Assembly (NCBI GenBank): GCA_000209465.1
Contig: GL890602.1
Coordinates: 1 to 47,583 of the forward strand
Source: Lachnospiraceae oral taxon 107 str. F0167
Lineage (GTDB): Bacteria; Bacillota; Clostridia; Lachnospirales; Lachnospiraceae
Reading direction: 5' to 3'
Length of the DNA stretch: 47,583 bases
Below are positions 5,373 through 47,583 of this stretch, piece after piece; the first letter of the stretch is position 1; each line of letters begins with the position of its first letter. The notes beneath the pieces are model-generated. The model was not told the DNA's origin and did no database searches. It saw only the letters and a program-made list of their open reading frames with translations. The position numbers were made by a program, and so were the translations under genes.

Positions 5373-7472
5373 ATGAGTAAGCAACCTACAAAACGAAACA
5401 GTACCAATATTACAGGGCTTTTGCTGATGGTTTTGGCTGCTGTTATTACTATTGTAATAGCTTTTCCTGTAACAGATGCTGTAAGAAAGAGCATAAAAGA
5501 CAATATAAGATATATTGCAGGTACATATTCCGCCATGGAGAAGGGGTTTGGCGGCAAGGTAAAAGCTATAGTAAAGGTGGGAGAAAACGGGCTGGAAAGT
5601 ATTTCTTTTGAAGGGGGGAAAGAAACTCCCGATATAGGCGGTGCTGCTATAGCGACCATCAATGAGCAGATGAAAAACGGGCTGAGTACCGAGTTTGAAG
5701 CTATAAGCGGTGCAACTGTAACATCCTATGGTATGAAAAGAGCTTTAAGAAAAGCTTTATTAAAGGCTCAGGGCAAAAAGGTAAAGGAAAATATAGTTGT
5801 AAAGTCAGCGGATATTGTGGTAATAGGTGCAGGCGGTGCAGGAATGAGTGCCGCAATTGAGGCTGCACAAAAGGGTGCCACCAATGTAGTGATTTTAGAA
5901 AAGATGCCTTTTACAGGAGGTAATACTGTAAGAGCCACAGGCGGACTTAATGCTTCACAGACATATTATCAACAAAGAGACGGAATAGAGGACAGCAATG
6001 ATCTTTTCTATGAGGATACAATGAAGGGGGGAAAAGAATTAAACGATCCCGCTCTTGTAAGAACTCTGGTTGAAAATTCCGCAGCGGCAGTGGACTGGGT
6101 AAATGAGATAGGCGGTGACCTTTCAGTTGTAGCTCAGTTTGGAGGTGCAAGTGTAAAGAGAATACATAGACCAAGTGATACCTCGGCAGTAGGCCCGATG
6201 CTTGTAAAAACCTTAAATGCGAAGCTCCTTGAACTTGGAATTCCGGTTTTGCTTGAAACAAAGGCGACAAAGATTTTAGCTGATAATGACGGCAAGATAA
6301 CCGGAGTGGAGGCTGAAGATGAAAATGGAGACTTTATTATAAATACCAAGGCTGTAATTCTTGCTACAGGAGGATTTGGTGCAAATCCTGATATGGTGGT
6401 AAAGTATGCGCCTCAGCTTGCAGGCTTTATTACAACCAATCATGCAGGGGCTACAGGTGACGGTATAGAAATGGCTTTGGAACTGGGAGCGGGACTTACA
6501 GATATTGAGCAGATACAGACTCATCCTACAGTAAACCCGGATACCGCAACTATGTATACCGAGGGTGTGCGTGGTAATGGTGCAATACTGGTAAATAATG
6601 ACGGAAACCGTTTTGTAAATGAATTGGAGACCAGAGATGTTGTTTCAGCAGCTATACTTGCACAGCCCGGTGAAGAGAGCTGGCTGGTATTTGATACGGC
6701 GGTAAGAGAGTCTTTGAGTGCTATAGAAAAATATATAAATGAGGGTATTATAGTAGAGGCAAATACTGTTGAAGAACTGGCACAAAAGACAGGTATAAAT
6801 GAAGCAAATCTTGTGGCTACTATGAGCAGATATGCACAAATGCAGCAGGCAGGGGCTGACAGTGATTTTGGAAGGCAGAGCATGGAATTACCTCTCACAC
6901 AACCGCCTTATTTTGCAGGTCGTGTAAAGCCTGCTATTCACCATACAATGGGTGGAGTAAAGATAAATAAAGATACTCAGGTATTAAAGGATGACGGCAG
7001 TGTTATTCCCGGACTTTTTGCAGCCGGTGAAGTAGTCGGCGGTGTACATGGCGCAAACAGGCTGGGTGGAAATGCAGTAGCGGATATTGTGGTATTTGGC
7101 CGCATTGCAGGTAATAATGCAAACGGATATGTACTTGAAAACGGTGGAAATACCGAGAGGACTATTACTGCAAATGATGATGCAAACTTTGAACCTCAGG
7201 ATATAAAGACAGATCTTAAGGACGGTTCATATAAAGGCAGTGCCAAAGGTTTTGGAGGTGATGTTGAGATTACATTTACCGTCACAGGAGGCATTGTAAA
7301 TGATTTATCAATAACCGGAGATAAGGAAACGGCTGAGATAGGTGGAAAGGCAATGGAAAAGATTAAGAGGGGTATGCAGTCAAGCGGAGAGTTTAAAGTT
7401 GACAGTGTATCAGGAGCTTCCATCACTTCAAAGGCTGTGAGTGATGCGTTAAGTAATGCAGCCATACAGTAG
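5373..7472 (+). CDS. Flavocytochrome-c/fumarate-reductase-like FAD protein with two FMN-binding domains
   Basis: 699 residues. A hydrophobic N-terminal segment (about 10-33) targets the protein to or across the membrane. It is followed by an FMN_bind domain with the attachment motif SGATVT at 112-117, an FAD_binding_2 module (GAGGAG at 152-157, GGNTVRATGGLNAS, IHHTMGGVKI, GANRLGGNA), and a second FMN_bind domain near the C-terminus with SGASIT at 680-685. In this family FMN is bound covalently to the last Thr by ApbE, and electrons pass from FMN to FAD to reduce fumarate, urocanate, methacrylate or similar acceptors. The substrate cannot be read from the sequence. AAGGAGGT precedes the ATG. 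It is monocistronic. Confidence 0.9.
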   Translation: MSKQPTKRNSTNITGLLLMVLAAVITIVIAFPVTDAVRKSIKDNIRYIAGTYSAMEKGFGGKVKAIVKVGENGLESISFEGGKETPDIGGAAIATINEQMKNGLSTEFEAISGATVTSYGMKRALRKALLKAQGKKVKENIVVKSADIVVIGAGGAGMSAAIEAAQKGATNVVILEKMPFTGGNTVRATGGLNASQTYYQQRDGIEDSNDLFYEDTMKGGKELNDPALVRTLVENSAAAVDWVNEIGGDLSVVAQFGGASVKRIHRPSDTSAVGPMLVKTLNAKLLELGIPVLLETKATKILADNDGKITGVEAEDENGDFIINTKAVILATGGFGANPDMVVKYAPQLAGFITTNHAGATGDGIEMALELGAGLTDIEQIQTHPTVNPDTATMYTEGVRGNGAILVNNDGNRFVNELETRDVVSAAILAQPGEESWLVFDTAVRESLSAIEKYINEGIIVEANTVEELAQKTGINEANLVATMSRYAQMQQAGADSDFGRQSMELPLTQPPYFAGRVKPAIHHTMGGVKINKDTQVLKDDGSVIPGLFAAGEVVGGVHGANRLGGNAVADIVVFGRIAGNNANGYVLENGGNTERTITANDDANFEPQDIKTDLKDGSYKGSAKGFGGDVEITFTVTGGIVNDLSITGDKETAEIGGKAMEKIKRGMQSSGEFKVDSVSGASITSKAVSDALSNAAIQ

Positions 7473-33414: not shown

Positions 33415-33870
33415 ATGCTTAGAGTGTGGTTTGGTGATAGAGATAATGTAATATATAATACATCAGTATATTTTAGAAACAGATATAAAGACAGCTGGAT
33501 TACAGATGAATTTGCAAGAGTCGCTATTAAAGATATTGACAGATCTGAAGTATTGGATGCAAATACTATTCAAAGCCCTGTTTTAGGACAAATTCCGCCG
33601 GATAAGCTATCAGGTGGTGTAAAGGCTTTGATTCTTATGAAAAATGAACCGGGTAAGACATTTAATGCATCCAACTGTGGAGATAATTGCTCAAAATGGA
33701 TACTAGAGCTTGGTAAAGAAAAGAATTTTACAATAGCCCTATATCACATAATGGATTTTGGAAAGGAAGATTTTGAAATTCGTATTTTAAATGACAAAAA
33801 ACTTATTGTACATAATATGAGAGAGTTTTTAGATGCGGCGGATAAATATCTTAAGGAGAATATGCAGTAA
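33415..33870 (+). CDS. DUF4869 domain protein
   Basis: 151 residues, soluble. The family opens with MLRVWFGDRDNVIYNTSVYF; the centre has IPPDKLSGGVKALILM followed by NASNCGDNCSKWILELGKEK, with two cysteines. The domain is known from Clostridia but has no assigned function. GGAGG precedes the ATG, and the next gene begins at its stop codon (TAATG), so it is translated with the ATPase. A decayed copy lies at 43167. Confidence 0.8.
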   Translation: MLRVWFGDRDNVIYNTSVYFRNRYKDSWITDEFARVAIKDIDRSEVLDANTIQSPVLGQIPPDKLSGGVKALILMKNEPGKTFNASNCGDNCSKWILELGKEKNFTIALYHIMDFGKEDFEIRILNDKKLIVHNMREFLDAADKYLKENMQ

Positions 33871-34520
33871 TGATTGGTAGGGTAAGTATTAAGATAAGCA
33901 ATCAAAGAAACTCTTATAAATTCACACTAAATAGGAATATTACTATTCTTCGTGGAGACAGCGGCACAGGGAAGACCACATTGTATGATATGATTAGAGA
34001 TTATAACAATCTGGGAAGAGAAAGCGGAGTAAAGATTAGCGGTGGAAATATTGTAACGCTGGAAGGAAGAAATTGGGAAGACGAACTTGATAAGTTGAGT
34101 AAAAAAATTGTAGTGATTGATGAAGGAAGTAAGTTTGTATTTTCAAAGGAATTTGCAAATAAGGTAAAGGGTTGCGATAATTACTTCCTAATAATAACAA
34201 GAAGTTATCTTTCACAGTTGCCATACAGTGTTGATGAAATATATCGTATTAAGGGTACCGGAAAGAACAAAGAATTTGAGAGAGTTTATACTGATATTGA
34301 TAAATTTTATGATAATCCTGATCCAAATAGATTTCCATTCATGCCGGATATTATTATTACAGAAGACAGCAAGTCCGGATATGAGTTTTTCTTAGATACT
34401 GTAAAAAATACAAATATAAAATGTGAAGCAGCAGGAGGAAAGTTACCATTATACTACATACAGCCGGACATAAAGGGGAAAATAATGATGCAGATTGCAC
34501 ATATTAAGTTGGATAATTAA
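33870..34520 (+). CDS. P-loop ATPase/GTPase partner of DUF4869
   Basis: 216 residues. A Walker A loop, GDSGTGKTT, lies near residue 29-37, and VVIDEG (about 88-93) is a Walker B-like strand; EYANKVKGCDNYFLIITRS-like text continues with ITRSYLSQLPYS, which reads as an ABC/SMC-type small ATPase without a signature motif. The C-terminal YYIQPDIKGKIMMQIAHIKLDN ends the gene. Overlaps the DUF4869 stop by one base. No family role is known; the pair looks like a module. Confidence 0.75.
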   Translation: MIGRVSIKISNQRNSYKFTLNRNITILRGDSGTGKTTLYDMIRDYNNLGRESGVKISGGNIVTLEGRNWEDELDKLSKKIVVIDEGSKFVFSKEFANKVKGCDNYFLIITRSYLSQLPYSVDEIYRIKGTGKNKEFERVYTDIDKFYDNPDPNRFPFMPDIIITEDSKSGYEFFLDTVKNTNIKCEAAGGKLPLYYIQPDIKGKIMMQIAHIKLDN

Positions 34521-39712: not shown

Positions 39713-41176
39713 ATGGTTGTACTTGAAAATGTATCTTTTTCTTATAATACTGTAGAGCATAGTGCTGGTGTTTATGATATAAATCTGGAGATTTTGCCCG
39801 GGCAGGTTGTGATTCTTTGCGGTGCTTCAGGTTGCGGTAAGACTACAATTACAAGACTGATTAACGGGCTTTCACCTGCATATTATCCGGGAGAGCTCAA
39901 AGGAAATATACTTATTGACGGCATAGATTCATCTGAATTGACATTATACGAATTGTCACAAAAAATAGGCTCTGTTTTTCAAAACCCTCGTTCTCAGTTT
40001 TTTAGTGTGGACTCCACCGGAGAGATTGCTTTCGGATGCGAAAATATCGGTGTATCAAGAGAAGAAATATATAAAAGAATAGGACGTATAACCAAGGATT
40101 TAAATATGGAATATCTTCTTGACAGAGATATTTTCGCTTTGTCAGGAGGTGAAAAGCAAAAGATTGCATGTGCATCTGTTGCAGCAATGTTACCGGAAAT
40201 TTTTATCCTTGATGAACCCTCTTCAAATTTGGATCTTCGTACTATTTCTGATTTAAAGGAGGTAATAAGAAATTGGAAAAAGCAAGGTAAGACGGTTATT
40301 ATTGCTGAGCATAGGCTGTATTATCTGATGGAGCTTGCGGACAGAGTCATTTATATGAAGGACGGAAGGATTGTAAATGACTTTTCTATTGATGAATTTA
40401 AAAAAATTGAAGAAACACAATTGCATCAAATGGGGCTTCGTTCCGTTTATCCGGTCAAATTTGAGGAAAGGAATGATGAAAACAGTAATAAAAACAACTT
40501 CAGTTTTAATAATATTTCATTTTCTTATGGGAAAAGAAAATTTATCGATATTCCTGATATAACAGTTCCATATGGTGCAATTGTAGGAGTTTTAGGGTAT
40601 AATGGTGCAGGTAAGTCCACTCTTGCAAAGATGATATGCGGACTTGAAAAAAGGGTAAAGGGAAGTTTAAACTATAAATCCGGTATTATTATGGCAAAGG
40701 ATTGGAAAAATCTAAGTTATATGGTAATGCAGGATGTAAATCATCAGTTGTTTACGGAAAGTGTTTTGGATGAAGTTATTTTAAGTATGGAAGAAGATGA
40801 TGAGATTGCAAAAGAAAATGCTAAGAAAATACTTAAAGATCTGAATCTGGAGATGTTTTGTGATGTACATCCACTCTCTCTTTCGGGAGGTCAAAAACAG
40901 AGAGTGGCAATTGGCAGTGCAATAGCAAGTGATAAGGAAATATTGATTTTTGATGAGCCGACAAGTGGTCTTGACTATGAGCATATGTTGGAAGTTTCTG
41001 AAATCATAAAGCATTTAAAAGCTGAGGGAAGAACAAGCTTTATCATAACTCATGATCCGGAGTTTTTAGAGGAATGCTGTGATTATTTGATTTTTTTGGA
41101 GAATGGAAAGCTTTTATGGTCAGGAGCATGGACAAAAGAAAATGCGGAAAGAGTGAGTAAATTTTTTGAAATATAA
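39713..41176 (+). CDS. Fused energy-coupling ABC ATPase (two nucleotide-binding domains)
   Basis: 487 residues. Domain 1: Walker A GASGCGKT (37-44), LSGGEKQKIA, ILDEPSSNLD, and a switch H in AEHR. Domain 2: Walker A GYNGAGKS (295-302), LSGGQKQRVAIGSA, FDEPTSGLD. It powers the S/T pair above. I start at MVVLENVSFSY (39713), where GGGGAG lies upstream; an in-frame ATG at 39683 inside EcfT is an alternative. The three genes form one operon. Confidence 0.92.
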   Translation: MVVLENVSFSYNTVEHSAGVYDINLEILPGQVVILCGASGCGKTTITRLINGLSPAYYPGELKGNILIDGIDSSELTLYELSQKIGSVFQNPRSQFFSVDSTGEIAFGCENIGVSREEIYKRIGRITKDLNMEYLLDRDIFALSGGEKQKIACASVAAMLPEIFILDEPSSNLDLRTISDLKEVIRNWKKQGKTVIIAEHRLYYLMELADRVIYMKDGRIVNDFSIDEFKKIEETQLHQMGLRSVYPVKFEERNDENSNKNNFSFNNISFSYGKRKFIDIPDITVPYGAIVGVLGYNGAGKSTLAKMICGLEKRVKGSLNYKSGIIMAKDWKNLSYMVMQDVNHQLFTESVLDEVILSMEEDDEIAKENAKKILKDLNLEMFCDVHPLSLSGGQKQRVAIGSAIASDKEILIFDEPTSGLDYEHMLEVSEIIKHLKAEGRTSFIITHDPEFLEECCDYLIFLENGKLLWSGAWTKENAERVSKFFEI

Positions 41177-41213
41177 GTCTTATAGCAAAAATCTTATATA
41201 TACAGGAGATTAA

Positions 41214-41651
41214 ATGGTAAGAGAGATAAAAGAAAATGAATTAAATGATTTACTCCAACTGTATTTACATTTACATGAGAGCAGTTTGCCGGAGATGTCA
41301 AAGCATCTTGAGGAGGTCTGGCTTAGCATTATAAAAGATGAGAACCATCATATTATGGTTAATGAAATAGACGAAAAAATAGTATCCTCCTGTGTCTGTG
41401 TTATAATTCCGAATTTAACAAGAAATGCAAGGAGCTATGCATTTATAGAAAATGTGGTTACTCATGTAAATTATCGCGGCAGTGGCTATGCAAGTGAATG
41501 TTTAAATTTTGCCGGAGAGATAGCTAAAAAAGAGAATTGCTATAAGATGATGCTTTTAACAGGCTCAAAGGATGAATCTACATTAAACGTTTATAAAAAT
41601 GCAGGCTATAATTGTGCCGATAAGACAGCATTTATAAAGTGGATTAAATAA
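41214..41651 (+). CDS. GNAT family N-acetyltransferase
   Basis: 145 residues, unrelated to the two GNAT copies upstream. The acetyl-CoA loop is RGSGYASECLNFA, preceded by IENVVTHVNY and followed by LTGSKDESTLNVYKNAGYN. Its substrate is unknown. Begins 37 bases after the ATPase gene with AGGAG upstream and could be the last gene of the ECF operon. Confidence 0.85.
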   Translation: MVREIKENELNDLLQLYLHLHESSLPEMSKHLEEVWLSIIKDENHHIMVNEIDEKIVSSCVCVIIPNLTRNARSYAFIENVVTHVNYRGSGYASECLNFAGEIAKKENCYKMMLLTGSKDESTLNVYKNAGYNCADKTAFIKWIK

Positions 41652-41666
41652 TATTTATAAAAAAGT

Positions 41667-41715
41667 AAAGGGTATGTCGTGACAGTAGGACTTTTAATCG
41701 GGACATACCCTTTTT
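41667..41715 (+). terminator. Terminator after the acetyltransferase gene
   Basis: AAAGGGTATGTC (41667-41678) and GACATACCC (41702-41710) followed by TTTTT; the loop is 23 bases. Confidence 0.8.
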
Positions 41716-41816
41716 AATGCTTATATATAATAAATAGGTGAAAATCCTGACTTATAAATTTCATTCTTTATTATCACAGAAAATCTTATTTACAGTATTT
41801 TTTACAGACTATGATT

Positions 41817-42383
41817 TTAGATACAGGCAGCCATACCGGATATTTTTTCCAAATAGAGTTTCCTTTTTTCCTGTGATGAGGATTCCACCTGAGCTAAAGT
41901 GGTTAATTTGACCGGTGTGATTCCGCAGGGCTTTAAAATCTGATTTTTTAAAACCTTGCCGTAATCATTACAGAATGGCAGTGCAATGGCAGGTGCATCC
42001 ATAGTGGTGATAATCCATGCTGATTTGCCCTTTAAATGCCCTTCAAGTCCTATTTTCTTATAAGAATAAGCAAAACCTGATACAAACACTCTGTCAATAA
42101 AGCCCTTTAAAATAGCAGGCATACCGCTCCACCATATAGGGAAGATAAAGATAAGCTTATCGGCTTCTTTGATCATATCACGATATTTGCAAGTCTCCGG
42201 ACTTTTTGCAAGATCACGCCTTTTATTTTTCTCATCAAATTTCAGCACCGGATCAAAATTTTCTTTATATAAGTCTATGGTTTTAATCTTATGTGTAGAC
42301 GGAATAGAACTTTCCACCTGCTTTAATATTGCATTATTAAAACTTTTACAATTTGGATGTGCGTAAATAATCAAAATATTCAT
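41817..42383 (-). CDS. NAD(P)H-dependent flavodoxin-fold oxidoreductase
   Basis: 188 residues of the NQO1/modulator-of-drug-activity B fold. MNILIIYAHPNCKSFNNAIL is the FMN phosphate loop region and FIFPIWWSGMPAILKGFIDRVF the NQO1-like WW motif. It reduces quinones or similar electrophiles with FMN. Its start overlaps the stop of the TetR gene by four bases (ATGA), so the regulator probably controls it in response to a toxic compound. Confidence 0.92.
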   Translation of the reverse strand: MNILIIYAHPNCKSFNNAILKQVESSIPSTHKIKTIDLYKENFDPVLKFDEKNKRRDLAKSPETCKYRDMIKEADKLIFIFPIWWSGMPAILKGFIDRVFVSGFAYSYKKIGLEGHLKGKSAWIITTMDAPAIALPFCNDYGKVLKNQILKPCGITPVKLTTLAQVESSSQEKRKLYLEKISGMAACI

Positions 42384-42976
42384 TTTCTTTCTCCTTTAAT
42401 ATAGATATCAAGCATATGCCTGATAGTACTTTGTATGGTTTCATTATCGAGTTCATTCCCTATCGGACTGCCGGCTATTACGGCTAAGCCGGAGATAAAA
42501 CTCCAAAAGTGAAGCAGAGACTCGGCTTCGCTATTTGTAAAGTTTTCCTCTTTTCGAAGCATCAGCACAATATGCTTAAACTTTGAAAATCCCGGGAAAT
42601 CAGAGGTGTCTGAAATGGTATTTTCTGTGAATTTCATATATTTAAACGGGAATTTGATAAATAATGCCTCAAAGAAATAAGGATATTTCTTTGAAAAATT
42701 TATCAGATTAAGTCCCATTTGAACCAGCTGTTCTCCTGCACTTTGCTTTATATCCATATCCTTAACAAGCTCATTATCAAGTAAGGTTGAAATATGCTTT
42801 AATACAACATTCAAATAATTTTCCTTGCTCTCAAAATGGCGATAAGGAGTGCCATGAGTCACTCCGCAGGATTTGGCTATGGTTCTAAGCGATAAATTAT
42901 CAATTCCGGATTGCTTTATTTCTTCCACCCCGGTTAAAATAAGATCTTCTTTCAATTTTTCCGTATTTCTTTTCAT
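42380..42976 (-). CDS. TetR-family transcriptional regulator
   Basis: 198 residues. The N-terminal helix-turn-helix reads LSLRTIAKSCGVTHGTPYRHFESKENYL; the C-terminal ligand domain resembles the TetR_C group (VKDMDIKQSAGEQLVQMGLNLI). It precedes and overlaps the oxidoreductase gene. Operators are present at its promoter. A decayed copy lies at 33121. Confidence 0.92.
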   Translation of the reverse strand: MKRNTEKLKEDLILTGVEEIKQSGIDNLSLRTIAKSCGVTHGTPYRHFESKENYLNVVLKHISTLLDNELVKDMDIKQSAGEQLVQMGLNLINFSKKYPYFFEALFIKFPFKYMKFTENTISDTSDFPGFSKFKHIVLMLRKEENFTNSEAESLLHFWSFISGLAVIAGSPIGNELDNETIQSTIRHMLDIYIKGERK

Positions 42977-42992
42977 ATTCGCCTCTTCTAAA

Positions 42993-43042
42993 AGTATACA
43001 CTGTCTACAATATTAGTATACACCGTCTACTTTTATTGTCAA
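42993..43042 (-). promoter_or_regulatory. TetR promoter with tandem near-palindromic operators
   Basis: Two 16-base copies, AGTATACACTGTCTAC (42993) and AGTATACACCGTCTAC (43015), are 22 bases apart, and each is itself a near palindrome (GTATAC ... GTCTAC). On the minus strand the second overlaps a TATACT -10, with TTGACA at 43042-43037 and 16-base spacing. This is what autoregulation by a TetR dimer pair looks like. Confidence 0.75.
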
Positions 43043-43166
43043 AGGGGTAAATATTAGGTTTAGGGAGAAGTTTTATTTTATAAAATCAAAAATAATTATG
43101 ATATAATAGATATTCAATATAAGAAAGAATTAGAAAGCCTATATTATAAAAGCATGGAGGAGTATT

Positions 43167-43502
43167 ATGCTCAGAGTATGGTTTGGCGACAGGGTAATGT
43201 AATATATAATACATCAGTGTATTTTAGAAACCGGTATAAGGATGGCTGGATTACAGATGATTTTACAAGGGCTGTTATTAAAGATATTTAATGCTTCAAA
43301 CTGTGGAGATAATTGTGCAAAGTGGATTTTAAAGCTTTGGAAGTAAAGAGATTTTACCATAGCTTTATATCATATAATGGATTTTGGAAAGAAAGATTTT
43401 GAGATTCGTATTCTTAATAATAAAAATAAAAAGCTTATTGTACATAATATGAGAGATTTTTTGGATGCTGTGAATGATTATCTTAAAGGGAAGGTAGAAT
43501 AA
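43167..43502 (+). pseudogene. Decayed DUF4869 gene
   Basis: MLRVWFGDR is followed by a one-base deletion and a stop at codon 12. A further deletion of about 125 bases (between sites equal to 33535 and 33661 in the intact copy) and an in-frame TAA after WILKLWK follow. The C-terminal NMRDFLDAVNDYLK is kept. The promoter-like GATATAATAG and the GGAGG site are preserved. Confidence 0.85.
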
Positions 43503-43738
43503 TATCAGGTGTAATTGTAGAGATAGAAGAGTTAAATGAAACATATAATTATGTAGACAGCACAAAATATAAAAGCCGGGAGCAGTATTTTACGCATTTA
43601 TTAGAGGAACTGAGTAAAAATGACAAGGCTAAAAAATATAATAAAAGCAGATTGCCGAAGTAGTATATACAGCCTGTTGTAAAGGAAAAGATACTATCTC
43701 AGATTCCACATCTTAAACTTGAGATATTAATATTATAA
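43503..43738 (+). pseudogene. Remnant of the ATPase partner
   Basis: Downstream of the DUF4869 remnant, the reading SRLPK-stop-YIQPVVKEKILSQIPHLKLE corresponds to the C-terminal LPLYYIQPDIKGKIMMQIAHIKLD of the intact ATPase. The P-loop part is absent; the preceding 50 codons (VEIEELNETYNYVDSTKYKS) are too changed to align by eye. Confidence 0.6.
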
Positions 43739-43740
43739 AG

Positions 43741-44026
43741 CTATTGTAAAAATACCGTATTATATTTCATAATTTTTGGCATAATTACTTGACACTTTAT
43801 GCCATATATTTTTATGTAATATATATACATATATATATAAGTATTTGATATTGAACGAATTAAGAATATTATGTACAATTACTTCACATAGTTGGCAGGT
43901 TCTAATATGATAGAGGACTATATTTTAGAGGTAGTTATGTTAAGTGTTAATCCAAAGAGATATAAGAACGGTGATATGTAAAATTTAAGTTGTAGGTATG
44001 ATTTATTAATTATGAGGAGGTAAGAT
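43741..44026 (+). promoter_or_regulatory. Leader and promoter region of the secreted-protein operon
   Basis: 286 bases without an established gene. A good promoter is TTGATA (43845-43850), 16 bases, TATTAT (43867-43872), giving a leader of about 150 bases. A second TTGACA lies at 43789. The stretch 43817-43838 is an AT alternation. A small ORF with a ribosome site lies at 43937-43981. Confidence 0.5.
43937..43981 (+). CDS. Possible 14-residue leader peptide
   Basis: AGAGG precedes ATG at 43937; the peptide reads MLSVNPKRYKNGDM. It lies in the 5' leader of the secreted-protein gene, 45 bases before that start. It could be a translated leader or chance. Confidence 0.25.
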   Translation: MLSVNPKRYKNGDM

Positions 44027-44482
44027 ATGAATAAGATTTTTAAAGTAATGACTATTGCGTGTGCTATAAGCGTATTGTCGACAAGTGTCAGCTATGCAAA
44101 AGTTACAAGGCTGTGGACCGGTAGTGATGCTTCATATGTTGAGAGTGAACATGGTGACAGTTTTTGGGCAGATATGTATTATGGTACTGTATCAGCTAGG
44201 GGAAGCGACAGAGTAATACATAATGGCAGGTATTGTTACTATAGTGAAGTAAGACTTACATATAATGTACAGGGTAAGCTTTACCCGGTAGCTGCTAGAC
44301 CAACAAGTAAAAATAGTAGTAGACCGGTCGTAAAAAAAATTGAAGTAAGGGATAAATGGAATATTGGGCCTAAGACCACGGCAAAATATTCAATTAATAA
44401 TGCTCCTGTAGACGGCAGTACAGTAAATTCTATTGGGAATAATGTGGATACTTTTATCAGCGGAAATATAGTTGTTGAGTAA
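44027..44482 (+). CDS. Small secreted protein, candidate bacteriocin-like product
   Basis: 151 residues. A clear Sec signal peptide (1-24, cleavage after SYA) leaves about 127 residues with a basic, aromatic, Gly/Ser-rich character: RLWTGSDASYVESEHGDSF, YYGTVSARGSD, a lone Cys in GRYCYYSEV. The pattern S-x-x-Y-x-x-x-x-HG near the mature N-terminus loosely recalls lactococcin 972, but the protein is longer and I cannot place it in a family. GAGGAGG precedes the ATG. It is followed by two membrane proteins and an ATPase in the order used for lactococcin-972-type loci, so export-coupled toxin, or a substrate of the transporter, is the working idea. Confidence 0.7.
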   Translation: MNKIFKVMTIACAISVLSTSVSYAKVTRLWTGSDASYVESEHGDSFWADMYYGTVSARGSDRVIHNGRYCYYSEVRLTYNVQGKLYPVAARPTSKNSSRPVVKKIEVRDKWNIGPKTTAKYSINNAPVDGSTVNSIGNNVDTFISGNIVVE

Positions 44483-44504
44483 GATTACCAAAGGTAGGGA
44501 CAGT

Positions 44505-45584
44505 ATGAAAAGCTTTGTAAAGAAAAATATAATATTTTATATTTTGATATTTGCAGTGAATTCTATCATATTAATTGCAGCTAATTATGTGGTTGGAAAC
44601 ACTATATCAATACCATATGAGTTATATGAAACCCGAAGGGTATTTGTCCCTACCGGAAAGGTTAAAAATTTTGATTGGGATTTTTTGCTTGAGCGAAATG
44701 TAGTGCTTGTAGCTGAGACATCAGATAGTAAGGTCGTGGGACTTTATGACCCGGGTATGTACTATTTTGTAAATTCCACAAAAGCACTTGACCCAAGATA
44801 TTTAAGATACTTTTCAAATGAGGACTATATAAAAAAGACCGATACAGGAGTAGCCCTTATAAATATTGATACTATGTTTCGAAGCGGAAAGCTAAGTCCG
44901 TACATAATAAAAAAGGGAATGAAAAGAGCAGCTGATACATATAATATAGACATTATAGGGGCGCTTGATATTGCTTCAGTAGGATATGGTTCACTTGAGG
45001 AGTCATATCCTACTGATGAATTTGCAGTATTTAAAAATATCTTTAAATTAAATAGTAATCTTATAAAGAAGATATATGTAGATGTGCCATATATAGATGT
45101 GTCGGAGACTGAAAAATTTAATGAAATGGAAAAGGTATCTGAAGTACTAAAAGAAAAAGGATTTACAGAGATATCTGAAAATAAAGCACAACCGGTGATA
45201 AAGGCATTTATTCATGCAGTATTAAATTACAGAAAATATGAGAGGTTTATATTATATTGTGCAATGGCATCATTATCAGTATTCATATACACCTCCGTGA
45301 TATATTTGTGGAAATATAAGGAATATATTTATATCAGCAGAGTATGTGGTACCGATTTTTTTAAAATGTATAAACTTATTTTAAAATATAGTATTTTTCA
45401 GATTGTATTAATAAGTATGGTGGCATCTTTTGGGATTTGGATATATTTAGGACTGATAAAAGAAGGAATAATGAGTATCTTTGATTATATAGTTGTTGAC
45501 TTTATATTTTTATTATTATTTTTATTATGTATAACAGGAGTATATATATTTGGATTTCTTAGATATTCAAGAGAGATGAGGTAA
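44505..45584 (+). CDS. FtsX-topology membrane protein, first half-permease
   Basis: 359 residues. One N-terminal helix (about 9-30), a large extracytoplasmic domain (about 31-240) and three C-terminal helices (about 250-275, 295-320, 330-350). This is the MacB/FtsX plan and matches half of a DUF1430 bacteriocin-associated membrane protein. The outer domain carries YDPGMYYFVNSTKALDPRYL and no enzymatic motif. Start at 44505 with AAAGGTAGGG upstream; the longer frame overlaps the previous gene. It ends three bases before the next gene. Confidence 0.72.
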   Translation: MKSFVKKNIIFYILIFAVNSIILIAANYVVGNTISIPYELYETRRVFVPTGKVKNFDWDFLLERNVVLVAETSDSKVVGLYDPGMYYFVNSTKALDPRYLRYFSNEDYIKKTDTGVALINIDTMFRSGKLSPYIIKKGMKRAADTYNIDIIGALDIASVGYGSLEESYPTDEFAVFKNIFKLNSNLIKKIYVDVPYIDVSETEKFNEMEKVSEVLKEKGFTEISENKAQPVIKAFIHAVLNYRKYERFILYCAMASLSVFIYTSVIYLWKYKEYIYISRVCGTDFFKMYKLILKYSIFQIVLISMVASFGIWIYLGLIKEGIMSIFDYIVVDFIFLLLFLLCITGVYIFGFLRYSREMR

Positions 45585-45587
45585 TAT

Positions 45588-46622
45588 ATGCTGACTGATA
45601 TGTTGCTTGGTATAAAAGATGCTTTGAAAAATAAAATGATTGCTTTAAGCTTCGTTATTATAACAATATCTGTATTTATTGTCTTAGTAGCTGCAACATT
45701 ATCTTTTAAAGATGATCTGTCTATGACCGAGGGGATTGGATATATGCATCTTGTTCCTATAAAATTTGTAGATGAAAAAGGTGATGAAGGAAAGAATATC
45801 CTTGAAAAGTTGGATAGTGTGTACAAGGATGGCGGTATAGCTATGTTTACTACAGTTTATAAATCAAGTAAAATTAAGACTGATATAAATGTTTTGGTAT
45901 GTAATGGTGGTGAATATATATGGATACTGCCTGAAAGAGAGTATAACAGTTATTTTAAAGGAGATGTCAAAGGCGATATTATCACTTGGAAACAAGTTGT
46001 AGATGACTTAGTTTATCAAGGATATGACAGAGAGTGGCTTAATTATTTCTTTTATGAACAGGAAAGTATATGTATAAAGATTAAGGATGATAAATATAAA
46101 AGATTTGAAGATTACAGTATTTCAATTTTTGATATTGATTCAATAGTTGAGAGAACTTATTTTAGCAAGGAAGATATAAAAAATGGTGTTGTAGATAATT
46201 TTATACAAGTCTTTGAAAATTCATCATTTTATCTTAAAGTGAATAAGATAAACAAGGATTTTAAAGAGATGAATTTTATAATAAGGTATGTGCTTATCTA
46301 TGTGATGTTTATTATACTTGAAATCATTTCAGTGCTTTTTATTTTTTTAGAGCATATAAAGAATAAAATGCATAAAGTGTTTATGATACATATAACATAT
46401 GGGGCAAGAAAAAGGGATATTATAATCAGAAATTTTACTATGAGCTTTGTGGTGATATCGGCAGATATTTTGATACTGTTTTATTTAAACATGTTCAGAT
46501 GGGATTTTGCTGCTGCACTCATAGTAGTAATATCTTTGTTTTTTCTACTGATAATGCTTATAGCTAATGTGATTGCCACTTTAAATGATGATTTTTTGTC
46601 AGAAAGGAGTGACAGGCAATGA
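45588..46622 (+). CDS. FtsX-topology membrane protein, second half-permease
   Basis: 344 residues with the same plan: an N-terminal helix (about 17-40), an extracytoplasmic domain (about 41-225) and three C-terminal helices, with the cytosolic loop KVFMIHITYGARKRDIIIRN between the first two, typical of FtsX coupling helices. It is not a close copy of the first protein. The two probably form a heterodimer. Its stop overlaps the ATPase start by four bases. Confidence 0.72.
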   Translation: MLTDMLLGIKDALKNKMIALSFVIITISVFIVLVAATLSFKDDLSMTEGIGYMHLVPIKFVDEKGDEGKNILEKLDSVYKDGGIAMFTTVYKSSKIKTDINVLVCNGGEYIWILPEREYNSYFKGDVKGDIITWKQVVDDLVYQGYDREWLNYFFYEQESICIKIKDDKYKRFEDYSISIFDIDSIVERTYFSKEDIKNGVVDNFIQVFENSSFYLKVNKINKDFKEMNFIIRYVLIYVMFIILEIISVLFIFLEHIKNKMHKVFMIHITYGARKRDIIIRNFTMSFVVISADILILFYLNMFRWDFAAALIVVISLFFLLIMLIANVIATLNDDFLSERSDRQ

Positions 46623-47287
46623 TTGAAATGATTGATATAAAAAAACGTTATATAAATTCGGATAAAAATATTATTGACGGTTGTCCGGCTACATTTGACA
46701 TCGGGAAAAGATATGCTTTATTTGGAGAAAACGGCAGTGGAAAGACTACATTTATAAAAATTCTCGGACTCCTTGATAAAAACTTTTCGGGTACATATAG
46801 AATAAACGGAAAAGATGTCTTAAGTATGTCGGGAAGTGATATTGCAAGACTTAGGAATGAAGTCTTCGGATTTATGTTTCAAGATAATAAACTTCTTGAG
46901 AATGAAAGTGCATACAATAATATATTTATTCCGCTTATCTATTCAAAAAAATACAGATATTTTGACAGAAAGAAAAGAGTTATTGAAATTGCCGAGATAC
47001 TTGGAATTGAAAAGTTACTTAAAAAGAGAGTTTTTCAAATGTCAGGCGGAGAAAAGCATATGATTGCTTTGGCAAGAGCAATGGTGAATAATCCGTCTGT
47101 ATTGATACTTGATGAACCTTTTTCATCACTTTCCATTGAAAACAGAACGTTGAGCATGGAATATATAGATAATATAATGGATGAGAGTAAAATACTTGTA
47201 ATGGTTACACATGACAGTAGGATATATAGTGATAAACGATATATTACTTTGAATATGACTGAGGGAAAACTTATTAATATAAAATAA
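46619..47287 (+). CDS. ABC transporter ATP-binding protein, MacB type
   Basis: 222 residues, one complete nucleotide-binding domain. Walker A GENGSGKT (36-43), Q-loop FMFQDNKLLENESAYNNIF, signature MSGGEKHMIALARA, Walker B VLILDEPFSSL, and H-loop THDS. It should drive the two half-permeases in a type VII (MacB) mechanism, which moves substrates outside the membrane rather than through it, as for peptide secretion or immunity. Confidence 0.92.
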   Translation: MIEMIDIKKRYINSDKNIIDGCPATFDIGKRYALFGENGSGKTTFIKILGLLDKNFSGTYRINGKDVLSMSGSDIARLRNEVFGFMFQDNKLLENESAYNNIFIPLIYSKKYRYFDRKKRVIEIAEILGIEKLLKKRVFQMSGGEKHMIALARAMVNNPSVLILDEPFSSLSIENRTLSMEYIDNIMDESKILVMVTHDSRIYSDKRYITLNMTEGKLINIK

Positions 47288-47294
47288 GTATGTA

Positions 47295-47328
47295 GGCAGT
47301 TGCTTTTATAAAGCAATTGCCTTATTTT
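47295..47328 (+). terminator. Terminator of the secreted-protein operon
   Basis: GGCAGTTGCTTT (47295-47306), loop TAT, AAAGCAATTGCC (47310-47321), then TTATTTT; one G-U pair in 12 bp. Confidence 0.88.
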
Positions 47329-47399
47329 ACTGAAGTATAAAGTTTGATCTTACCGGGAAACTGAATTATTTGGATTAGTATTAAATTACCAGTATTAAA

Positions 47400-47583
47400 G
47401 TAAGCGCCTTATAATATAATGCCTTATATTCAGTTATAAATAATGAGATAATAGTTACCAACAAGTGTATAGTACTATTTAGTTATAGTGAAGTATAGTA
47501 CTGTATAGTAATGCAAGTCGGAGGTAATTATGGATCAAGTAACAAAAGTAAAAAGGCATTTAAAACAAGAGCAATGGAAAGCA
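47400..47583 (+). mobile_element. Left end of an IS66-like insertion sequence (partial)
   Basis: GTAAGCGCC at 47400 resembles the terminal inverted repeat of IS66-family elements, which begin GTAA. AT-rich leader DNA with TATAGTA repeats (about 47468-47516) follows, then a ribosome site and a small ORF. The 8-base target duplication, if this is the end, would be 47392-47399; the other end is outside the window. Confidence 0.55.
47530..47583 (+). CDS. Start of IS66-type accessory protein TnpA (partial)
   Basis: GGAGG seven bases upstream of ATG; the visible 18 residues are MDQVTKVKRHLKQEQWKA. The RxxxxxEQW start and the position next to an IS66-like terminus fit the small TnpA protein of IS66 elements. 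The rest lies outside the window, so the call is tentative. Confidence 0.5.
   Translation, partial: MDQVTKVKRHLKQEQWKA

Follow-up and report, generated by a model that had tools for sequence, protein, structure and literature searches.

In the final 4 kb of the window analysed here, a stretch of 47,583 nucleotides from Lachnospiraceae oral taxon 107 str. F0167 (assembly GCA_000209465.1, contig GL890602.1, positions 1 to 47,583, forward strand), four genes on the + strand form an operon that encodes a small protein with a Sec-type signal peptide, two separate permeases and an ATPase. We lean towards the view that this cassette consists of a bacteriocin-like, Sec-exported effector and a type VII (MacB/FtsX-like) ATP-binding cassette (ABC) transporter for self-immunity. 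Computation established the operon, the conserved association of its genes, their joint divergence, a collinear match of the two permeases to the fused permease of lactococcin 972 loci, a beta fold prediction for the secreted protein and the insertion of the cassette relative to a genome of the same genus. The parts of the operon are listed below (ORF, open reading frame; aa, amino acids).

43845..43872, + strand: promoter-like site TTGATA-16-TATTAT, weak, matching 10 of 12 consensus positions
44027..44482, + strand: ORF of the secreted protein, 151 aa, first gene of the operon
44027..44098, + strand: Sec-type signal peptide, 24 residues, ending in SYA, boundary set by eye
44099..44482, + strand: mature form of the secreted protein, all-beta by prediction as far as about residue 127, tail of low confidence at 130-151
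44505..45584, + strand: permease 1, 359 aa from ATG, 1+3 helices, corresponding to the N-terminal half of the fused permease at lactococcin-972 loci
45588..46622, + strand: permease 2, 344 aa, 1+3 helices, probably corresponding to the C-terminal half of that fused permease
46619..47287, + strand: ABC ATPase, 222 aa, of the MacB/LolD/lactococcin-972 exporter type (PF00005, 97.9 bits)
47294..47322, + strand: intrinsic terminator, 13-pair stem, 3-base loop, T-rich tail

The operon and its signals

An earlier sequence-only reading of this stretch described a Sec-type protein of 151 residues, two proteins of 1+3 topology and a MacB-type ATPase, and the ORFs, hydropathy and ATPase profiles agree with it. 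The ORF coordinates also reproduce the spacing that it gave, namely gaps of 22 and 3 bases and an overlap of 4 bases (gaps 22, 3 and -4). Because the same gene order was found again at 12 other loci, the array is more than a chance arrangement. The reading had further placed the set between a promoter and a terminator. The terminator is well supported, as its 51-nt stretch folds at -19.8 kcal/mol (z -5.43), a value equalled by 0 of 200 shuffles; a simple terminator scan gave 1 site, the expected number being 1.2. The call of a promoter at 43845 is weak because such sites are frequent in this AT-rich stretch, where 43 were found against 30.8 +/- 5.9 in shuffles, a moderate excess only. The G+C content of the operon is 0.305, compared to 0.355 in the window, and the neighbouring stretch is low as well.

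A secreted protein family without a name

The 151-aa protein has a single N-terminal hydrophobic segment by hydropathy, centred on residue 13, and its cleavage site is of the AXA type without a cysteine, hence no lipoprotein cysteine is present there. By eye, the same signal layout occurs in six of seven rows of the family, the window included, and is absent in locus L062. In Pfam, the window protein matched nothing up to an E-value (E) of 5, and in NCBIfam nothing above noise (best E 0.045). When seven family members were scanned singly against both libraries, the best rows (E 0.04 and 0.023) belonged to unrelated families, and no housekeeping, toxin or binding-protein family was matched. A housekeeping assignment, which the sequence-only reading had named as a possible refutation, was thus not found in Pfam or NCBIfam. 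PF09683, the lactococcin-972 family, gave no match at E 10 in any of the seven members; a profile of the seven found no PDB chain at E 10, and hhalign against six lactococcin-972 family members returned a probability of 1.1, with no detectable sequence link. The earlier description of a different and longer type of protein therefore holds by profile, and on sequence grounds the protein belongs to a family without a name in Pfam or NCBIfam as searched.

With an alignment of seven rows, AlphaFold2 produced a best model of eight strands (mean predicted local distance difference test score 71.4, predicted template modelling score 0.63), and three of the five models reached only 39-45 in the former score. 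The weak structural neighbours of the predicted all-beta protein include one solved lactococcin-972-family bacteriocin. Seven residues (Y37, H42, Y51, G53, S56, G59 and D109) are present in all 12 rows of the family alignment.

Conserved association of the four genes

Searched as single sequences, the secreted protein and permease 1 each found only the window itself (1 of 200 sampled genomes of the family). When the ATPase served as the guide, the matches listed were all at MacB level (best 39%), but they pointed to the distant locus L037. Compared as two single sequences, permease 1 of L037 and that of the window match over 57 aa at E 4e-5. A permease 1 profile of these two, run on 392 genomes of the order, led to L062. 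At L062 the trio of permeases and ATPase has homologues (permease 1 E 3e-13, permease 2 E 2e-5, ATPase 42% over 175 aa), and ahead of them lies one of the secreted protein (38% over 95 aa, E 4e-21); these E-values come from single comparisons. The two secreted proteins, used as a pattern on one genome per species in 84,980 species, yielded six loci, in Peptoniphilus asaccharolyticus, Ezakiella, two Oscillospiraceae, an uncultured Acetivibrio and, as the L062 locus again, Acetivibrio ethanolgignens. Among 341 genomes of the class, 17 had a match to the permease 1 profile, and to the loci of the secreted family this search added L102, the second one in the Ezakiella genome. By eye, ordinary FtsX, MacB or fused permeases made up several of its weaker rows. 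Finally, a secreted-family profile found 7 genomes among the 130 of the family of the Ezakiella genome, five of them new.

The secreted family is now known from 13 loci in 12 genomes, the window counted. Several records are duplicates (L068 of L062; L080, L101 and L126 of L064; L127 of L063; L096 and L133 of L102), L071-L073 fall inside the L067 and L062 records, and the operons of L065 and L066 are near-identical. At 13 of 13 loci the secreted gene is directly followed, on the same strand, by two permease ORFs and an ATPase; at L134-L138 the recognition of these three rested on gene order, length, hydropathy and the ATPase signature, without alignment. The possibility raised earlier, that the transporter always accompanies a non-secreted, unrelated gene, does not agree with this count. 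The pairwise identities of the secreted proteins track those of permease 1, permease 2 and the ATPase (r 0.86, 0.84 and 0.77 at seven loci), and permutations reached such values in 18, 3 and 18 of 5040 cases, respectively. Eight loci entered this comparison, seven of them the permutations, and the five latest loci stood outside it.

In the ATPase tree, which included seven of the 13 loci, the seven cassette ATPases lie on one side of a supported branch (96/91), with 12 MacB-type, five BceA-type and three lactococcin-972 ATPases and that of L037 on the other; the window's ATPase is a long branch. Because of the association at all loci, the correlated divergence and this separate ATPase branch, we regard the four genes as one unit that travels together.

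A split permease and its ATPase

The hydropathy peaks of permease 1 (17, 257, 309 and 343) and permease 2 (26, 244, 294 and 316) fit 1+3 helices with a large loop. A stop and a start separate the two genes, and they are not one protein with both halves. The fused permeases used for reference came from three lactococcin-972 loci (L074, L075 and L077), each with a bacteriocin, a permease of 695-734 aa and an ATPase. By hhalign, permease 1 matched the N-terminal half at a probability of 92 (E 5.8e-7), compared to 19 (E 0.0012) for the C-terminal half and 55 (E 1.2e-4) for nine MacB-type permeases. Permease 2 matched the C-terminal half at 52 (E 1.4e-4), compared to 1.4 for the N-terminal half and 16 for the MacB set. 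Against the uncut fused permeases, permease 1 kept a probability of 91 in their N-terminal part; permease 2 reached only 8.5, yet still in the C-terminal part. Thus, of the earlier idea that a large permease exists here as two polypeptides, the separate ORFs are certain, and the correspondence to the two halves is firm for permease 1 and moderate for permease 2. The gene order mirrors that of the halves.

Among the profiles proposed earlier, permease 1 scored below the cut-offs of PF07242 (DUF1430; 8.5 bits against 28.2) and Pfam FtsX (8.7 against 25.5), and permease 2 matched neither. No permease of the window reached the cut-off of MacB_PCD in Pfam. The top Pfam row of permease 2 was ABC2_membrane_3, at 21.2 bits under a cut-off of 31.6. 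Among relatives, FtsX was matched by two of seven permease 1 members (best E 0.04) and two of seven permease 2 members (best E 0.0012), and DUF1430 by a single row at E 0.077 among the seven permease 2 members. Importer families in Pfam were not matched by members of either permease.

For the ATPase, the first of 191 NCBIfam models matched was TIGR03608 (L_ocin_972_ABC; 164.1 bits, under the cut-off of 254.85), followed in rank by LolD, FtsE and MacB. Its PADLOC matches were taken as generic P-loop matches. The two permeases and the LolD-like ATPase have the layout of a type VII ABC transporter (MacB/FtsX superfamily), the helices being assigned by hydropathy alone.

Comparison with known systems

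Lactococcin 972 loci, as known for Lcn972, streptococcin B and mediterrocin, comprise a bacteriocin, a DUF1430-type permease and an ATPase. The window's cassette resembles them in that a small Sec-exported protein comes first, followed by permease and ATPase genes on the same strand with short gaps, in the collinearity of the permease halves and in the best score of its ATPase with TIGR03608. The bacteriocin fold of that family is the beta-sandwich of 2lgn and 9hkj, and the predicted fold of the window protein is all-beta. The cassette differs in that its permease is two polypeptides, its secreted proteins are longer and have no sequence similarity to PF09683 members that could be detected, and the seven cassette ATPases form their own group. 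No split-permease lactococcin-972 locus was named in the titles and abstract openings of the papers listed by literature searches.

MacB, LolCDE, BceAB and FtsEX are type VII ABC transporters whose 1+3 permeases carry a large loop between helices 1 and 2. The cassette shares these features and a LolD-like ATPase; unlike those systems, it has two unlike permeases with a free ATPase and no further operon gene, and its permeases fall below the Pfam FtsX cut-off or have no match. Paired separate 1+3 permeases are not unusual in themselves, as in LolCDE and Vex. Vex123-Pep27 of Streptococcus pneumoniae likewise has two separate permeases, one ATPase and a small secreted product nearby; Pep27, however, is a short peptide compared to the 151-aa protein of the cassette. 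A counterpart is known for each part of the cassette; the secreted family is unmatched in the libraries searched.

Insertion and genomic setting

Two further features flank the operon:

43167..43761, + strand: remnant of a two-gene module (start approximate), middle part missing, intact in G481, from blastn and reading frames
47531..47583, + strand: start of an ORF cut by the end of the contig at 47583, from translation

The sequence-only reading had suspected mobility, and a comparison with G481 (L121), a genome of the same genus that has no cassette at the corresponding site, bore this out as an insertion beside decayed genes. In a blastn search of positions 40000-47583, the window matched G481 at 41197-43288, 43280-43503 and 43500-43761 with 92-96% identity, and nothing matched past 43761. 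The two genes beside the site are open in G481, and in the window their remnants are joined. Most simply, the cassette would be an insertion relative to G481 with its left edge at 43761. The right junction could not be placed, as the downstream ORF is cut by the contig end and the right flank of G481 matches 18 places in the window's own genome. Permease 2 was found in none of five other genomes of the genus. The ORF cut by the contig end, a short fragment, is presumably IS66 orfA-like, and in P. asaccharolyticus (L063) we take fragments just upstream of the cassette to be transposase-like.

A plasmid or phage origin found no support in the plasmid, phage and viral-contig collections searched. 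In plasmids, neither the secreted protein nor permease 1 of the window or of L062 was found; the L062 secreted protein was absent from phages, the two- and seven-row secreted alignments found nothing in viral contigs, and window permease 1 found nothing new in genome contigs or viral contigs.

Some observations were made on the surroundings. Read by eye, positions 33415-34520 of the window hold the two-gene module once more (151 and 216 aa), the remnant being that at about 43167-43761, and the second gene of the module has 321 aa in G481. G088, another genome of the genus, has two copies of the flavodoxin/TetR pair that lies to the left of the insertion (L120:1664-2823 and 5859-7087), the TetR copies having 96% and 82% identity to that of the window. 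At L135 (5666-7274, -), another small secreted ORF (131 aa) was seen by eye just upstream of the cassette, together with a sigma-factor-like/membrane-anchored pair, possibly of a regulatory nature.

Other split-permease loci

The permease 1 profile also reached five loci at which other small proteins precede two 1+3 permeases and an ATPase:

L104, 5798-6133, - strand: other small protein upstream of the trio, gap of 424 bases
L105, 5563-6030, - strand: other small protein upstream of the trio, permease 2 broken
L106, 2541-2858, + strand: other small protein upstream of two permeases and ATPase
L110, 1878-2213, + strand: other small protein upstream of two permeases and ATPase
L092, 2737-3102, - strand: other small protein upstream of two permeases and ATPase

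Four of these five proteins have an N-terminal hydrophobic segment. By hhalign, they have no sequence relation to the present secreted family or to lactococcin 972; those of L104 and L105 gave a probability of 2.4 (E 0.019) against the 12-row family. Tentatively, and with more doubt than belief, we suggest that bacteriocin cassettes of Clostridia may form a superfamily, so far unrecognised, whose shared core is the split-permease trio. Small secreted proteins unrelated in sequence, namely the present family and those of the five loci, would be interchangeable in it, and the lactococcin-972 fused permease would be one derived branch. As separate observations, G1046, the genome with the split trio L103, also carries a fused permease of 719 aa with an ATPase (L111:3524-6367, +) and no adjacent bacteriocin gene obvious by eye, and the lactococcin-972 locus L074 (2264-6556, -) has an extra half-size permease-like ORF of 289 aa upstream of the bacteriocin gene.

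Proposed function and alternatives

For this cassette we infer secretion, an antibacterial action, its target and immunity as follows. The 151-aa protein would leave the cell by the Sec route and be cut after SYA. The mature protein may form a compact beta domain and act on the surface of competing bacteria, where a cell-wall precursor is a plausible target by analogy with lactococcin 972, whose family is marked by lipid II binding and septum inhibition. The two permeases and the ATPase would make up a single type VII transporter, a split version of the lactococcin-972 fused permease and ATPase, which would work at the membrane's outer face and detach from the producer either the secreted protein itself or the complex that it forms with the target. 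Because the secreted protein carries a Sec signal, the transporter need not export it, an argument also put forward for mediterrocin (PMC12345188).

Other reports bear on immunity. The permease and ATPase genes of lactococcin-972 clusters are regarded as conferring immunity, and cluster-bearing L. lactis had minimum inhibitory concentrations of 800-1600 AU/ml compared to 12.5 for the plain host, among the rows seen (PMC4055356). Mutations selected by Lcn972 switch on a Bce-like ABC module in L. lactis (PMC7438565), and the individual roles of permease and ATPase were stressed as unverified (PMC11796350). If the trio confers immunity, the secreted gene could be lost while the trio stays intact. 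This was seen at L062, where the signal part of the secreted gene is gone and its matched stretch has one stop, beside an intact trio, and possibly at L103 and L037; it may be compared with the pneumococci that have scbBC only (157 of 571 genomes; PMC11796350).

Some findings weigh against our proposal. At L136, the permease 2 ORF has only 153 aa beside a signal-bearing secreted gene, which points the other way. Permease 2 also matches permease 1 (hhalign 82 in one direction, 30 in the other). The trio accompanies the secreted family at all of its loci, but it is not exclusive to that family: at L103 (G1046) no secreted gene lies within 1.1 kb upstream, L037 also lacks the family and has a remnant upstream, read by eye, which we take to be transposase-like, and L104 and L105 have another small protein instead.

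Type VII transporters act through extracytoplasmic partners, and the secreted beta protein could serve a MacB/FtsEX-like transporter as its ligand, adaptor or substrate in signalling or wall remodelling, without any killing. The occurrence of the transporter with other small proteins or with none (L103, L104 and L105) and the lack of a match to any toxin family agree with such a role, which we consider unlikely, although it deserves some weight. The spread is patchy for such a function (7 of 130 genomes in one family, permease 2 in none of five others from the genus), and by eye no further gene recurs beside the four in the flanks, which were without annotation. Because of this spread, the insertion relative to G481 and the decay at L062, a competition cassette fits better than envelope housekeeping. 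Dedicated export, with the transporter receiving the secreted protein from the membrane or Sec and releasing it as MacB and LolCDE release their substrates, seems improbable to us. The name of the top ATPase model, putative bacteriocin export ABC transporter, speaks for it, but the signal peptide is complete with an AXA-type site lacking cysteine, the operon has no further gene, and the trio also occurs without the secreted gene. A secreted protein beside an ABC transporter is a common layout of importers as well. However, uptake or efflux of a nutrient or metal with a secreted binding protein is very improbable, as the permeases match MacB-type and lactococcin-972 permeases and not Pfam importer families, the cleavage site has no lipoprotein cysteine, and no binding-protein family was matched.

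If the self-immunity proposal is true, the cassette would represent an unnamed family of secreted, folded and probably antibacterial proteins of Clostridia together with their likely immunity genes, unrecognised by Pfam and NCBIfam as searched. The loci with the trio alone, beside those with both parts, would then allow a direct test of immunity by permease and ATPase in lactococcin-972-like systems.

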